Assembly: GCF_000284415.1 (NCBI RefSeq) | Contig: NC_017059.1 | Coordinates: 3,506,841-3,526,741 of the forward strand | DNA from: Pararhodospirillum photometricum DSM 122 | GTDB lineage: Bacteria > Pseudomonadota > Alphaproteobacteria > Rhodospirillales > Rhodospirillaceae | Direction: 5' to 3' | DNA: 19,901 bases | Shown: positions 54 to 4,528 of the stretch, one piece after another | Numbering within the stretch: position 1 is the first letter of the stretch | How the letters are laid out: each line of letters begins with the position of its first letter | Made by a program: the position numbers and the translations under genes | Notes under the pieces: model-generated | Told to the model about the DNA's origin: nothing | The model's database searches: none | What the model saw: only the letters and a program-made list of their open reading frames with translations

Positions 54-533
54 ATGAAAGCCAGCCTTCAAATCTACGGCACGGATGTCCTGCGCCGTGC
101 AGGGTGTCGTGAGCTTCGGTTGCCGCTGTCCGACGCGTTGGCGCGGATGAAGGCGTGGGCGCAGCGGTATGGCGGGGCGGTTCGGGCCCGGGATCAGGGC
201 GCGGTTCTTGCGGTTGGACGGGAGATGGCCGACTGGCTGGACCGGGATGGCTGGTTGACGGCATGGACCGAGGAGGGGGGGGCCCGTGAGCTGGAAATCT
301 TCAGTCACACGGCTACGCCGACCTCTGAGGAGGCGGCTCTGCTTGATTTGCCATGGGAGGTGCTGGCGACGCGGGACGGTTTTTTGGCGGCTGATCCCAA
401 AGAGTGTTGGCATCCGGCACAGCATCGCCCGGCCCCAGGCCGCAGAACCGCATCCAACTCAGCCGGTCGCGCACTAGGTACGTCGTCCGACCCAGCGCCA
501 GACCGTGCAGCGACTGCAAAACCAGCATTTTGA
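54..533 (+). pseudogene. 5' remnant of a CHAT-domain protease gene, truncated at an IS5-type fragment
   Basis: The first ~112 codons (54 to about 393) read as the N-terminal part of a CHAT (caspase-like, HetF-associated) protein. They end in LLDLPWEVL and GFLAADP, which match the conserved Leu-Pro-Trp-Glu stretch that opens CHAT protease domains. Nothing of the catalytic His or Cys region remains. From about 390 on, the frame reads antisense through transposase sequence to a chance stop at 533, so the 159-codon open frame is a chimera. The ATG at 54 has a GGGAG ribosome site a few bases upstream. Base composition is GC-rich like the chromosome, unlike the second CHAT gene at 1057. The CHAT assignment rests on the short motif and is moderately sure; the truncation is clearer because the transposase on the other strand is easy to recognise. 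Confidence 0.6.
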
Positions 534-723
534 ATTTCAAAACCGCGTCGAAGCCGGGCCGACCGCCCTTCGAGGGCGCACTCCGTCGCCGGACCGCACG
601 CTCCAGAACCGGCCGGAACAGTTCGAAATCCACCGTCTTCGACAGCGTCTCCAGCGGATCGCCCTCCGCCGAAAGTTCCTCCAGACGACGCTCGACATCC
701 CAGAACCCAATCTGAACCGCCAT
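391..723 (-). mobile_element. IS5-family transposase, N-terminal fragment (broken)
   Basis: Read on the - strand from ATG 723, about 110 residues match the N-terminus of IS5-group transposases. Recognisable stretches are GFWDVERRLEEL, the TVDFELFRPVLERA segment, KGGRPGFDAVLKFKMLVLQ, RDRLSWMRFCGLGPGD and VPDANTLWD. Family members are usually about 300 or more residues and carry the DDE catalytic core in the missing part, so this remnant cannot encode an active enzyme. Similarity stops near 391, where the CHAT remnant on the + strand begins; the literal - strand frame runs on to 313. I could not identify a terminal inverted repeat with confidence, so the outer IS end, expected somewhere in 724-830, is not marked. 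Confidence 0.75.
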
Positions 724-1056
724 TGCCGCCCCCCAATAGCCGATCGCCTATGGAATCACGAACCAGACCCAGACGCCAGTTTCCGGAGGTGTCCAAATGG
801 TGGAACCAGTGGATCACGACAGGCCCTATAGGGGAATTCCATGCGAGTCACTTCTGATGTCGGGCGATATAAAAATTCCCGACGGACTCTACAATGGGAC
901 CCAATCAGGAGCGTCGTCTCCGATGCGTTCCGTATTATCAATAGGGACAGCTTCTGGTTAATGGTGTGATAGTGATGTAATTTATCTTTAGGTGTGCTAT
1001 GGTGCACCTTAGGAGGTTATTGGATGCTCTGAAGGCGTTTTTTGTTTTAAGTAGAC
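724..1056. other. Spacer between the IS remnant and the CHAT cassette
   Basis: I see no convincing gene here. The left ~100 bases are probably the non-coding end of the IS element and contain a perfect 10-bp palindrome CCCTATAGGG (824-833). From about 835 rightward the DNA becomes AT-rich and probably holds the promoter of the CHAT cassette, but I cannot assign -35 and -10 boxes. At 1011-1016 there is a textbook AGGAGG, followed 7 bases later by ATG (1024). That ATG meets an in-frame TGA at 1030 and a TAA at 1048. An 83-codon frame on the - strand (756-1007) resembles nothing I know and is most likely chance. Confidence 0.5.
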
Positions 1057-4000
1057 GTGCGGATGTTTTGCGGGAGAAACAACGGTCGGTCGGTGGCGGG
1101 GGTCTTGGCCGCCGAGCAATTTTGTCGAAAAACTTTGGAGTTTTATACTGTGCTGAGATTTATCTCTAGGTTGTTTTGTCGTCGAACCAAAAGGCAACAT
1201 CGGGTGCGGGGGGCGGACGCGATAGCTGTAGGCCTGCGGCGTAACTCTAGCCGCGACCCAGCCCCGGAACCAGCGGAAGAATTCCGCCCCATCCAAAACG
1301 ATCTGGTGGCGGCCTGCTACAAGGCGCTGGCTGACGTCGAAAGGCGTGCTAAGGAGAAAATGGCAAATCCTGGCTATTGGCACAATGTTGGCTTTGTGGA
1401 AGGTGCTGCTTATGACTTATGCGTCTTAACGAACGAGATCATGCCCCGCTTCGACGACCTAGGCCGCCAGCGGCAGGTTGGCGAGATCTACATGCTCCGG
1501 GCTAAGGAGGTTTACCGCAGATACTTCGATGATTATGACGAAGACGGTTACGGTCTGAGCATTTTCAATATATTCATCGAGATATTTCATTCGGCCGATA
1601 AGACGTCAGTCCCCTTTTATGACAACCTTGCCCTATCGAACACCCCCTGGAAGGAGCGGGTCGATGTACGTCCCGACGCGCCGACTGTATTTGATGCTCC
1701 CTGGGATGGTGTCATCCTTGACCGGATGATGTTGTCTGTGACGAGCGCCGATGCCCGCGCGGTGATGGAGCGGTTGATGGTTTGGTGTCGCGACCTATCA
1801 AATAGTATTTTCTCAGTATTGTATGGTCCTATGGTTGACGAATATATGCGAGAATATGAGACGTTGTTGTCAAAGGGCAGCGATGTAAATTTTTTGGCGT
1901 TTTTAGTTTTTCGGCGCGCGTTATTTTCTATCACTCTGCTGAATCTTTCGGGATTGGCTCTCCATCCCTTGCGCCTGGAGGCATTGCGAATACTGCAGGC
2001 GGTGGTCAATATCCACATAATTCTTCCGTCGTTAAGCCAGATCGACCCCTTGGCTGCGATGGCGGCGAGAGCGGAAATGCTTTGTCACGCGGCCCAGATT
2101 GATGCGCAGTTCGTCAAGGTAACCAATGACAGTTCAGACCTCGCGCGGGCCGCTATGATGGCCATTCATCACGGACTCTATTTTTCAGGTATTGACCTAC
2201 TGGACAACCCGATAATTGATATTAAGAAAGAATGCTGCTGCCTTAGGAAAAAACTGATCTACGGCCTCAGTATTCCCCATTATATTCCAGATATTGTTGA
2301 GGAATTGCATGATCTAGTTGGACGGAGCGCGCTGGAGCGCACCGAGCGACTGCCAATCATAACACCTACCGGCTGGATGGTGTTGTGGCGCCGCCTAGCC
2401 GAATTGGATTGCGACTTCAGTAATCAGGCAGGCGGTCCGCCAGACAGAGAGGTGCGGGCGGGACGTCTTCAGCGGGGGTTGGCCACCATGGCCGATGTAA
2501 CCAAGATCGCTGTTGAGCAAATTGCAGGTACTGGCTACCTATTAAGAGAGGATTTCCGCCTAGATGAATCCTGCATTGAAGGAATTATCGGCGTCGTATC
2601 CATACTTTTAACCGAAGCTAGGGAAAATCTTATTTTTTTGACACGCAGACCCATGAAGAATATTTTATGGAGAATTTGCGCCCTGCGCGATTATATCCGC
2701 ACGGGCAGCACCGACTTAACATGTACTCCTTCCGGTTTGGACGGGGAAGAAGGGGCCTGCGTGACTATCGTCGTATACTTCCGGATTCTGGACTATTTCA
2801 GCGCATGGAAGAGCCGGACCTATATGTTGACCATGCTAAGCGTCGATATGCGTGCAGACATGCAAATGCAAGAAAAAATAGACGTCTTGAAATTCATAAA
2901 AGAGGGTGGAGACCCGAGTGAGGCTTTTGAATACATCAAGAAGCAGAGACTGGAAAACGCCCAAAATACAAACCAAGAAAATTTTTTTAAATATGTACAA
3001 TTTGATGTGTCACTCGACAGTGGGGCTGCCTGTTTTCGTCCCATCGGCGCTAGCGCGGAGATCGACCGCATGATTTCCGATTTTCGTGGCTGGATACTTG
3101 GGCAGGAAGGAGCCGAGGAGCGTGCGAGTTTGATCCCTCCCAAGATCATCGACGTAATCATTTTCCAAGGATCGAGCAATCCGGTTGGCGAAAGCTCTGA
3201 CCAAAAGGATAAGTTTTGGGCGAAGCATAAATGCAATCGGGTAGCGAAACAGCTTTTCGCGGCGATAGATATGACTAAAATATTTTATATTGTTCCAGAC
3301 GGAGAGATGTTTCGCCTTCCGTGGGACGCAATTATTCAAAGCTTCGATGATAACAAGAGGGGCCCTTATCTCTATTCTTCGGTCGCCTACAGCTTACGTC
3401 AATGCGCATCCTGGTCCAGAATTGTTTCTCCGGAAGGTTCCACAAGGGGAGTTGTCGTTGATAGCCCGGACTATGATCTCGCCGGGAAGCACCCTTGCGC
3501 CCTGGATCCCCTTGTCCATGCCGCTGACGAGGCGGAGAGCGTCGCCCGCTATTTTGAAATTGAGCGCCTCACCGGCCGAAGAGCGCACAAGCAAGCTCTT
3601 GCGGCCTTGAGCAATCCCCTGTTCCTACACATCATCACCCATATGGGTGTGCGCGACGAGCGCTTGATTAAGCCCGACGAAGATGCGTTGTTCGTCGGAG
3701 TGTACAGCGGCACACCGACAAAAAAGGAGGCCGAGTTGCAACGAATGATCGCCCTAACCGGGGCCGGTCGCAGTTTGGTTGGCTCCGCAGAGGAGTACGC
3801 CGATTTTTTCGGCAATGGAATTTTAAATGGTGACGATTTTCAAAGGCTTAATCTTCACCAGACCATGCTTGTGGTCCTTTCCGGCTGCGAGAGCATACAG
3901 GTCACTATCGACCATGCCGGGAGGCTGCACAGCTTCGGTCTCGACGTATTCCGAGCGGGCGCACAAGCCGTTATCGGCTCGGTATGGAAAAGTGACGACA

Positions 4001-4203
4001 GGGCAACCGGGATATTCATGTCCAGGCTTTATGAACGCTTAGCCGATGGCGCAGTATTGGGCGCAGCTTTTCATGACGCCAGGGAATTGGCTCGCCTTCA
4101 GACCGAGCGGTTCGATCAATGGAGCCCGTTTGTACTATTGGGAAACCCCAACATCACCTTAAAGGAACATCATGAGGCTAAAAATAATCTCACCACGCTA
4201 TAG
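1057..4203 (+). CDS. Large CHAT-domain (caspase-like) protease with long unrecognised N-terminal region
   Basis: The C-terminal ~350 residues (about 695-1045) form a CHAT domain, the caspase-like fold also found in TPR-CHAT (Csx29) and separase-like proteases. Visible landmarks are VPDGEMFRLPWDA (from V746), the catalytic His in HIITHM (H862), the catalytic Cys in VVLSGCES (C944), AGAQAVIGSVWKSDD and a final WSPFVLLGNP. The dyad is intact, so proteolytic activity is likely; the substrate is unknown. The ~600 residues before it look helix-rich with no motif I recognise and could be a sensor or substrate-binding region. The start is unresolved: GTG 1057 opens the longest frame but lacks a ribosome site, while GTG 1150 has GGAG at 1137-1140, 9 bases upstream, and would give 1,017 residues. 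The first ~70 residues are low in family character. The gene is visibly AT-richer than its neighbours and uses TTA, ATA and AGA-type codons freely, suggesting transfer. It overlaps the next gene by 32 bp. Confidence 0.85.
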   Translation: MRMFCGRNNGRSVAGVLAAEQFCRKTLEFYTVLRFISRLFCRRTKRQHRVRGADAIAVGLRRNSSRDPAPEPAEEFRPIQNDLVAACYKALADVERRAKEKMANPGYWHNVGFVEGAAYDLCVLTNEIMPRFDDLGRQRQVGEIYMLRAKEVYRRYFDDYDEDGYGLSIFNIFIEIFHSADKTSVPFYDNLALSNTPWKERVDVRPDAPTVFDAPWDGVILDRMMLSVTSADARAVMERLMVWCRDLSNSIFSVLYGPMVDEYMREYETLLSKGSDVNFLAFLVFRRALFSITLLNLSGLALHPLRLEALRILQAVVNIHIILPSLSQIDPLAAMAARAEMLCHAAQIDAQFVKVTNDSSDLARAAMMAIHHGLYFSGIDLLDNPIIDIKKECCCLRKKLIYGLSIPHYIPDIVEELHDLVGRSALERTERLPIITPTGWMVLWRRLAELDCDFSNQAGGPPDREVRAGRLQRGLATMADVTKIAVEQIAGTGYLLREDFRLDESCIEGIIGVVSILLTEARENLIFLTRRPMKNILWRICALRDYIRTGSTDLTCTPSGLDGEEGACVTIVVYFRILDYFSAWKSRTYMLTMLSVDMRADMQMQEKIDVLKFIKEGGDPSEAFEYIKKQRLENAQNTNQENFFKYVQFDVSLDSGAACFRPIGASAEIDRMISDFRGWILGQEGAEERASLIPPKIIDVIIFQGSSNPVGESSDQKDKFWAKHKCNRVAKQLFAAIDMTKIFYIVPDGEMFRLPWDAIIQSFDDNKRGPYLYSSVAYSLRQCASWSRIVSPEGSTRGVVVDSPDYDLAGKHPCALDPLVHAADEAESVARYFEIERLTGRRAHKQALAALSNPLFLHIITHMGVRDERLIKPDEDALFVGVYSGTPTKKEAELQRMIALTGAGRSLVGSAEEYADFFGNGILNGDDFQRLNLHQTMLVVLSGCESIQVTIDHAGRLHSFGLDVFRAGAQAVIGSVWKSDDRATGIFMSRLYERLADGAVLGAAFHDARELARLQTERFDQWSPFVLLGNPNITLKEHHEAKNNLTTL

Positions 4204-4528
4204 CGAAGCGCAGCTCCGCAGCATGCTTGCCGAAATCGAGGTGAGTTCGGAGAAGTCCGGTGCCATTCAGGTCTTGGGGCGCCCAGGCGCGACACGACAA
4301 CTCGAAACCGAAGTGATTCTCAAGCTGGTCGAGGTTGGTGGCGAGACGTTAACCGCGCTAATAGCCGGGCTGTCCGCATGGTTAGTTGCACACAGGGGCA
4401 AGACGATCGTTATCCAGGATCAATACGGAAACAGGATCGAAGCGCCTGCGGGTGTTTCAGACGCAGATCTTGACAATTGCCGACGTGTTCTGGAGCGTAT
4501 GCAATCGCCGACGATCCGCTTAGAATAG
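4172..4528 (+). CDS. EACC1-like small protein coupled to the CHAT protease
   Basis: This is a 118-residue protein whose ATG lies inside the end of the CHAT gene, 5 bases after AAAGGA (4161-4166), so the two genes are translationally coupled. It has a short amphipathic start, a charged middle, a hydrophobic helix around residues 52-73 (GGETLTALIAGLSAWLVAHR) and a beta-like end with TIVIQDQYGNRIEAPAG. Order, size and the helix-W-L-(K/R)-strand-GN/DG pattern resemble effector-associated constant component 1 (EACC1). That family is described beside caspase- or trypsin-like effectors in NTP-dependent bacterial conflict systems. The assignment is from pattern memory and needs a profile search. Its role in such systems is not settled; from its position it could be an adaptor, inhibitor or membrane anchor for the CHAT protease. 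No NTPase (STAND or similar) gene lies next to it in the window. Confidence 0.6.
   Translation: MRLKIISPRYSEAQLRSMLAEIEVSSEKSGAIQVLGRPGATRQLETEVILKLVEVGGETLTALIAGLSAWLVAHRGKTIVIQDQYGNRIEAPAGVSDADLDNCRRVLERMQSPTIRLE

Follow-up and report, generated by a model that had tools for sequence, protein, structure and literature searches.

A 19,901-nucleotide stretch of the single-contig chromosome of Pararhodospirillum photometricum DSM 122 (NC_017059.1, positions 3,506,841-3,526,741 of 3,876,289 bp; hereafter the window, numbered from its first base) contains a pair of overlapping genes that encode a large CHAT protease and a small EACC1-like protein. The pair is best read as a rare variant of the known two-gene peptidase conflict systems, a CHAT version for which we infer the function from sequence and comparison. 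Specifically, a probability of about 0.5 is given to a conflict unit, acquired horizontally, in which the small protein would control the protease. Both genes are intact, overlapping and provided with good ribosome-binding-site sequences, and the two plus-strand open reading frames (ORFs), at 1057-4203 (1048 residues) and 4172-4528 (118 residues), exist and overlap by 32 bp as claimed in the original prediction, an earlier reading of the bare sequence.

The CHAT protein

The large protein, numbered below along the 1048-residue ORF unless stated, is certain as a CHAT protein at the level of the profile match, with Pfam CHAT (PF12770) at E 2.8e-31 and 109.5 bits against a cut-off of 24, over residues 744-1030. 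The His862/Cys944 dyad, described as intact in the earlier reading, is in place, both residues being predicted to be catalytic and conserved in all 10 CHAT proteins of an alignment. CHAT is the sole Pfam match of the protein, with zero match to caspase C14, and structural matching discloses a caspase/separase-like fold for the CHAT core, several of the matched entries comprising separase together with securin. The AlphaFold model of the chain is poor (mean predicted local distance difference test score (pLDDT), 45), and only the CHAT core and the rough topology were used. Ahead of the protease, the N-terminal region of about 690 residues shows zero relatives in a Protein Data Bank (PDB) sequence search, and TPR is undetected in it by Pfam at E up to 1; the TPR matches returned by a 10-row profile were ascribed to TPR rows of other proteins, because the CHAT protein alone yields none.

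GTG 1057 is probably not the true start of the gene. The full-length homologue P0004, introduced below, has the N-terminus MLGFISRLLGRR, which on visual alignment pairs with VLRFISRLFCRR in the window, that is, at GTG 1150; since P0004 begins there and the GGAG at 1137-1140 agrees, the start is placed at GTG 1150, giving a protein of about 1017 residues. Elsewhere on the same chromosome, about 106 kb off, a second CHAT gene (3400865-3401671) gives a weak match, with 25% identity over about 110 residues.

Origin and distribution of the pair

The composition of the cassette (1150-4528) is foreign, and the pair was likely acquired horizontally. Its G+C content is 51.8%, compared to a chromosomal mean of 64.6% (standard deviation, 4.4) over 578 equal-length windows from 17 stretches of the same chromosome, only 10 of which are as low or lower, in line with the deviating base composition first claimed. 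Third-position G+C is 57%, compared to a mean of 75% for 181 ORFs, with 6.6% of these comparison ORFs, some of them probably non-genes, equally low. Promoter and terminator scans gave no excess over shuffles, and Rfam returned zero matches in the window.

Other copies were sought among 5.8 billion proteins by a word-based search of limited sensitivity, which reaches fairly close relatives only. The small protein has one relative besides its own record, P0002 (84% identity over 100% of its length), and the CHAT protein one full-length relative, P0004 (70% identity over 97% of its length), with eight more matches covering 21-29%, about the size of the CHAT domain. The contigs of P0002 and P0004 both measure 14,231 bases and come from one source, so that the two very likely share one contig, and the pairing is very likely kept in the sole other copy found. 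Among genomes of the order, the small protein is present in its own genome only (1 of 317), and the full-length CHAT protein is likewise confined to its own genome among 61 own and related genomes, three of which have partial matches from residue 726 on. The pair lacks a counterpart in these relatives. The foreign composition described in the original prediction is supported, and conserved pairing, a further point raised there, probably holds for the other copy.

Two candidate sources were considered and rejected. For a phage origin, neither protein matched in 50,697 phage records, no match emerged from three viral-contig scans (two to six short patterns each, reaching close relatives only), and there was no PHROG match. 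For a plasmid origin, the small protein has no match in plasmid records; the CHAT protein matches 23 such records, in every case only from residue 663 onwards and with an identity of about 24-37%. In a scan of 84,980 species with the CHAT pair (two patterns), 115 stretches hit a pattern, none of them a relative.

The small protein and its likeness to EACC1

The small protein matches Pfam EACC1 (PF19953) with 20.2 bits and E 5.9e-4 over residues 12-110, covering positions 6-106 of the 107-position profile, and its homologue P0002 scores 20.4 bits over positions 8-106. This near-full-profile span speaks for homology with EACC1, which the small protein weakly resembles. A low-confidence model (mean pLDDT, 48) comprises a helix, a long hydrophobic helix, two strands and a helix, a topology that appears in keeping with EACC1 as described in the main text of PMC7159879, and GG occupies residues 56-57, by the hydrophobic helix. 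The mean hydropathy of that helix is, on one of two scales, 4.1 and 3.7 in the small protein and P0002, within the range of 1.4-4.4 of three EACC1 proteins.

These EACC1 proteins come from a survey of 385 genomes of the class, Alphaproteobacteria, in which EACC1 matches at E 0.001 in six genomes and exceeds the cut-off in three (50.0, 30.7 and 29.0 bits); a gene with Pfam caspase C14 directly follows EACC1 in all three. Among 398 genomes of the phylum, the four EACC1 matches were all below the cut-off, and a five-row profile run against the 385 class genomes recovered the window's own copy, the three EACC1 rows used to build it and seven more matches at 17.6-21.9 bits that look like noise. The own-genome PF19953 search is not fully sensitive, because it missed the small protein, listing another frame at E 0.46. 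According to the main text of PMC7159879, EACC1 is commonest in actinobacteria.

The CHAT domain itself is common, being present in 80 of the 385 class genomes. From 128 listed CHAT places, fragment rows excluded, 60 were taken with longer flanks; 30 CHAT loci had flanks of only 1.5 kb, too short to show the gene preceding a long CHAT protein. With duplicates and loci lacking a CHAT frame excluded, the final sample comprises 82 CHAT loci besides that of the window, including six plasmid records and the host's other CHAT gene, and small ORFs of 80-190 residues on the same strand near the CHAT genes were scanned with Pfam.

Several results weigh against an EACC1-controlled conflict unit. (i) The small protein and P0002 both miss the Pfam cut-off of 23.6 bits for EACC1. 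(ii) The small protein scores no better than sub-threshold matches in seven other genomes (19.9-23.0 bits), at least some of which sit within larger membrane proteins; six of the seven fall between profile positions 28 and 85, mostly on the helix only, and the seventh spans 6-83. (iii) A profile-profile alignment (hhalign) of the small protein and P0002 with the three EACC1 proteins has a probability of 1.3%, the profiles being very thin (two and three rows). (iv) On the other hydropathy scale, the helix means are 1.45 and 1.57, compared to 1.86-2.13 in the three EACC1 proteins. (v) EACC1 is matched by 0 of 69 small ORFs near the 82 other CHAT genes, in the same scan that matched the small protein, so that the combination of EACC1 and CHAT does not recur in the sample. 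(vi) PADLOC gives BovA only for the CHAT protein (E 0.016, 60 residues) and nothing for the small protein, none of it convincing. EACC1 beside CHAT is thus one rare pair in a sample drawn mostly from one class. The EACC1-like character put forward in the original prediction stands as far as the near-full-length match goes and falters on the cut-off and the empty profile-profile comparison; since the curated cut-off is missed, the protein is here called EACC1-like and is not assigned to the family.

The sub-cut-off score also bears on a rather unlikely alternative, in which the small protein is no EACC1 relative and instead a dedicated inhibitor or chaperone in the style of securin with separase, the two genes forming a protease toxin and its antitoxin. 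The overlap, with the small gene second and carrying its own ribosome-binding site, would suit such an arrangement, as would the likeness of the CHAT core to separase, whose structure includes the inhibitor securin in several matched entries. The separase-securin pair has in common with the window a C-terminal clan-CD protease core behind a long N-terminus and a separate partner protein; it differs in that PDB sequences offer no relative for the small protein even with E allowed to reach 10, inhibition being a guess. The weak full-length EACC1 match in both copies points away from an inhibitor, and the hydrophobic helix was judged unusual for a soluble antitoxin.

Two loci of the CHAT survey deserve mention in their own right. 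At L081 of genome G110, a 121-residue protein with a hydrophobic stretch and no Pfam match (3515-3880) lies 18 bp before a CHAT-nSTAND-TPR gene, perhaps a parallel layout of small partner and CHAT. On a Rhizobium plasmid (CP140872.1, 531744-542052; L114), a CHAT gene is flanked at a few genes' distance by one caspase-family gene on each side, a further grouping of caspase-like peptidases.

Comparison with known systems

Reading the pair as a CHAT version of an EACC1 system, the closest comparison is the EACC1 two-gene system of Kaur et al. (System 4 in the main text of PMC7159879), which likewise comprises an adjacent gene pair coding for a small protein and a caspase-kind peptidase with a large further region. 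The EACC1 small protein described there has a single central hydrophobic helix that bears a Gly patch and is only briefly flanked, a build that the small protein of the window may share, and its partner is either a second protein with an N-terminal caspase-superfamily peptidase or a cyclic nucleoside monophosphate (cNMP) cyclase. The differences comprise (i) CHAT in place of caspase C14, together with a small protein under the EACC1 cut-off; (ii) the gene order, with the peptidase gene first here and the EACC1 gene 5' in PMC7159879, as in the three EACC1 genes found; and (iii) the domain order, with the protease C-terminal here (residues 744-1030 of 1048) and N-terminal there.

The TPR-CHAT protein Csx29 of type III-E CRISPR (Craspase) resembles the large protein in its N-terminal part (helical here in the low-confidence model), C-terminal CHAT, His/Cys dyad and CHAT core fold. 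Compared to Csx29, the window shows no TPR by Pfam, no Cas gene among the scanned proteins and, instead, a small overlapping partner. SAVED-CHAT, a filament-forming CHAT protease, differs in its SAVED domain, undetected here since CHAT is the only Pfam match of the large protein. CHAT also occurs in conflict proteins diversified by diversity-generating retroelements (PMC10907252), the main text of which does not contain the word EACC1. EACC1 is named in 13 of 5.39 million open papers, two of which concern this topic by title, and no description of a CHAT-EACC1 pair was found in the open text covered, figures, supplements and most subscription papers lying outside this scope; in the main text of these two, CHAT is unmentioned as a domain, the word being absent from one and part of author names in the other, although it may be subsumed under 'caspase-superfamily' in the EACC1 paper.

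Should the reading be correct, a CHAT version in the opposite order would mean that caspase-like peptidases can exchange the EACC1 control module, and the N-terminal stretch lacking relatives would become a new candidate sensor. A bolder version, less likely than not, would see a new class of two-gene suicide switch that combines CHAT, a previously unseen helical sensor of 690 residues and a turned-round EACC1-like control; the EACC1 module could then be wired both to CHAT and to a peptidase at the C-terminus.

Proposed mechanism

The pair would operate like an EACC1-caspase system in which CHAT takes the place of the caspase and both genes and domains come in the opposite order. Until infection or stress is sensed, the small EACC1-like protein would retain the CHAT protease, and thereafter release it, its hydrophobic helix placing the complex at the membrane or masking the protease, and the N-terminal region of the large protein, helical only in the low-confidence model, may sense the trigger or dock the small protein. 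Upon activation, the His862/Cys944 dyad would cut one or a few cell proteins, leading to growth arrest or cell death before phage maturation. For EACC1-caspase systems, a membrane sensor activating the peptidase was proposed by Kaur et al. (main text of PMC7159879), and in Csx29, according to the main text of PMC10028731, the His/Cys pair is shifted into a new position by target RNA that binds at a distance from the active site; allosteric release of this type would suit the helical region ahead of CHAT.

It is unlikely that CHAT acts instead as a regulatory protease, cutting, for example, an anti-sigma factor to launch a stress programme in the manner reported for Csx29, or serving as a non-lethal signalling platform (DdvA fold). 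No sigma or anti-sigma gene is present among the proteins scanned, which are part of the ORFs, and conflict genes are the better match for the foreign composition and the patchy occurrence.

Genomic neighbourhood

The features of the locus are collected in Table 1.

Table 1. Positions of the CHAT/EACC1-like cassette and adjoining elements in the window
Feature	Position	Strand	Remark
Stump of about 113 residues, N-terminus of another CHAT-AAA-TPR protein	54..393	+	44% identity to L083 (other class genome), E 1e-16 for a single comparison
Insertion sequence (IS) remnant, 402 of about 1325 bp	394..795	-	End at 795 faces the cassette, intact by comparison with other copies
A+T-rich leader, from IS end to CHAT gene	796..1149	.	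47.7% G+C
GGAG, likely ribosome-binding site of CHAT gene	1137..1140	+	Sequence; nine bases before GTG 1150
CHAT protein, about 1017 residues from likely GTG start	1150..4203	+	Frame open back to 1057
N-terminal region, about 690 residues	1150..3219	+	Predicted all-helical (low-confidence model); P0004 sole relative found
CHAT protease domain	3286..4146	+	Residues 744-1030 of 1048-residue ORF
His862 codon, predicted catalytic	3640..3642	+	Invariant in 10/10 aligned CHAT proteins
Cys944 codon, predicted catalytic	3886..3888	+	Invariant in 10/10 aligned CHAT proteins
AAGGA, likely ribosome-binding site of small gene	4162..4166	+	Sequence; inside CHAT gene
Overlap of CHAT and small genes	4172..4203	+	32 bp
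Small EACC1-like protein, 118 residues	4172..4528	+	Pfam PF19953 below cut-off
Hydrophobic helix of small protein, residues 57-75	4340..4396	+	Low-confidence model

The original prediction had described a unit with no STAND NTPase beside it, which does not hold, as a 695-residue AAA/STAND-TPR protein is encoded on the same strand to the left, ending 31 bases before the window and about 1.2 kb before the cassette, with an IS remnant and the truncated start of another CHAT protein in between. This protein matches AAA_16 (E 1.6e-5) and nSTAND5 (E 1.6e-4), both under the Pfam cut-offs, and TPR above them. The CHAT stump is interrupted at 394 by the IS remnant, whose frame carries the transposase domain DUF772. 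Sequence matching the remnant recurs at seven other chromosomal sites (322-412 bp, 89-99%); four of these copies have about 1,325 bp in common, and since their common end matches at 795, the end of the remnant there is taken as intact. These features suggest an acquired region of STAND, TPR and CHAT genes that an IS has disrupted in part.

The truncated CHAT gene and truncated IS adjoining the cassette would also agree with a quite improbable reading, in which the cassette is a decaying, inert leftover of a larger STAND/CHAT island; both cassette genes, though, are uninterrupted and keep their ribosome-binding-site sequences, and protein identities of 70% and 84% to the second copy extend over 97% and 100% of the length.

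To the right lie the housekeeping genes cinA, pgpA, tex, argG, ychF, pth and L25. The genes cinA, pgpA and the one after them are kept side by side in four relatives, where the cassette and all left-hand query proteins lack a match beside them; because the left-hand host proteins are unmatched there, a clean empty site could not be identified.

Left of the window, a gene for a 150-residue membrane protein adjoins the STAND-TPR gene on the same strand, and the two proteins (L116:12255-14810; chromosome 3504254-3506809) have a common motif, SALVNGSVKGSVTQT / SAVVNGPVSGIVIQT, with an alignment score of 71; none of 5000 shuffles scored above 57. This motif pair is one that we take to resemble a bacterial amyloid signalling motif pair. 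Further left, at about 14 kb from the cassette, the end of a Type I restriction-modification methylase gene and a specificity gene are found (L116:11-1671; chromosome 3492010-3493670), with housekeeping genes between.

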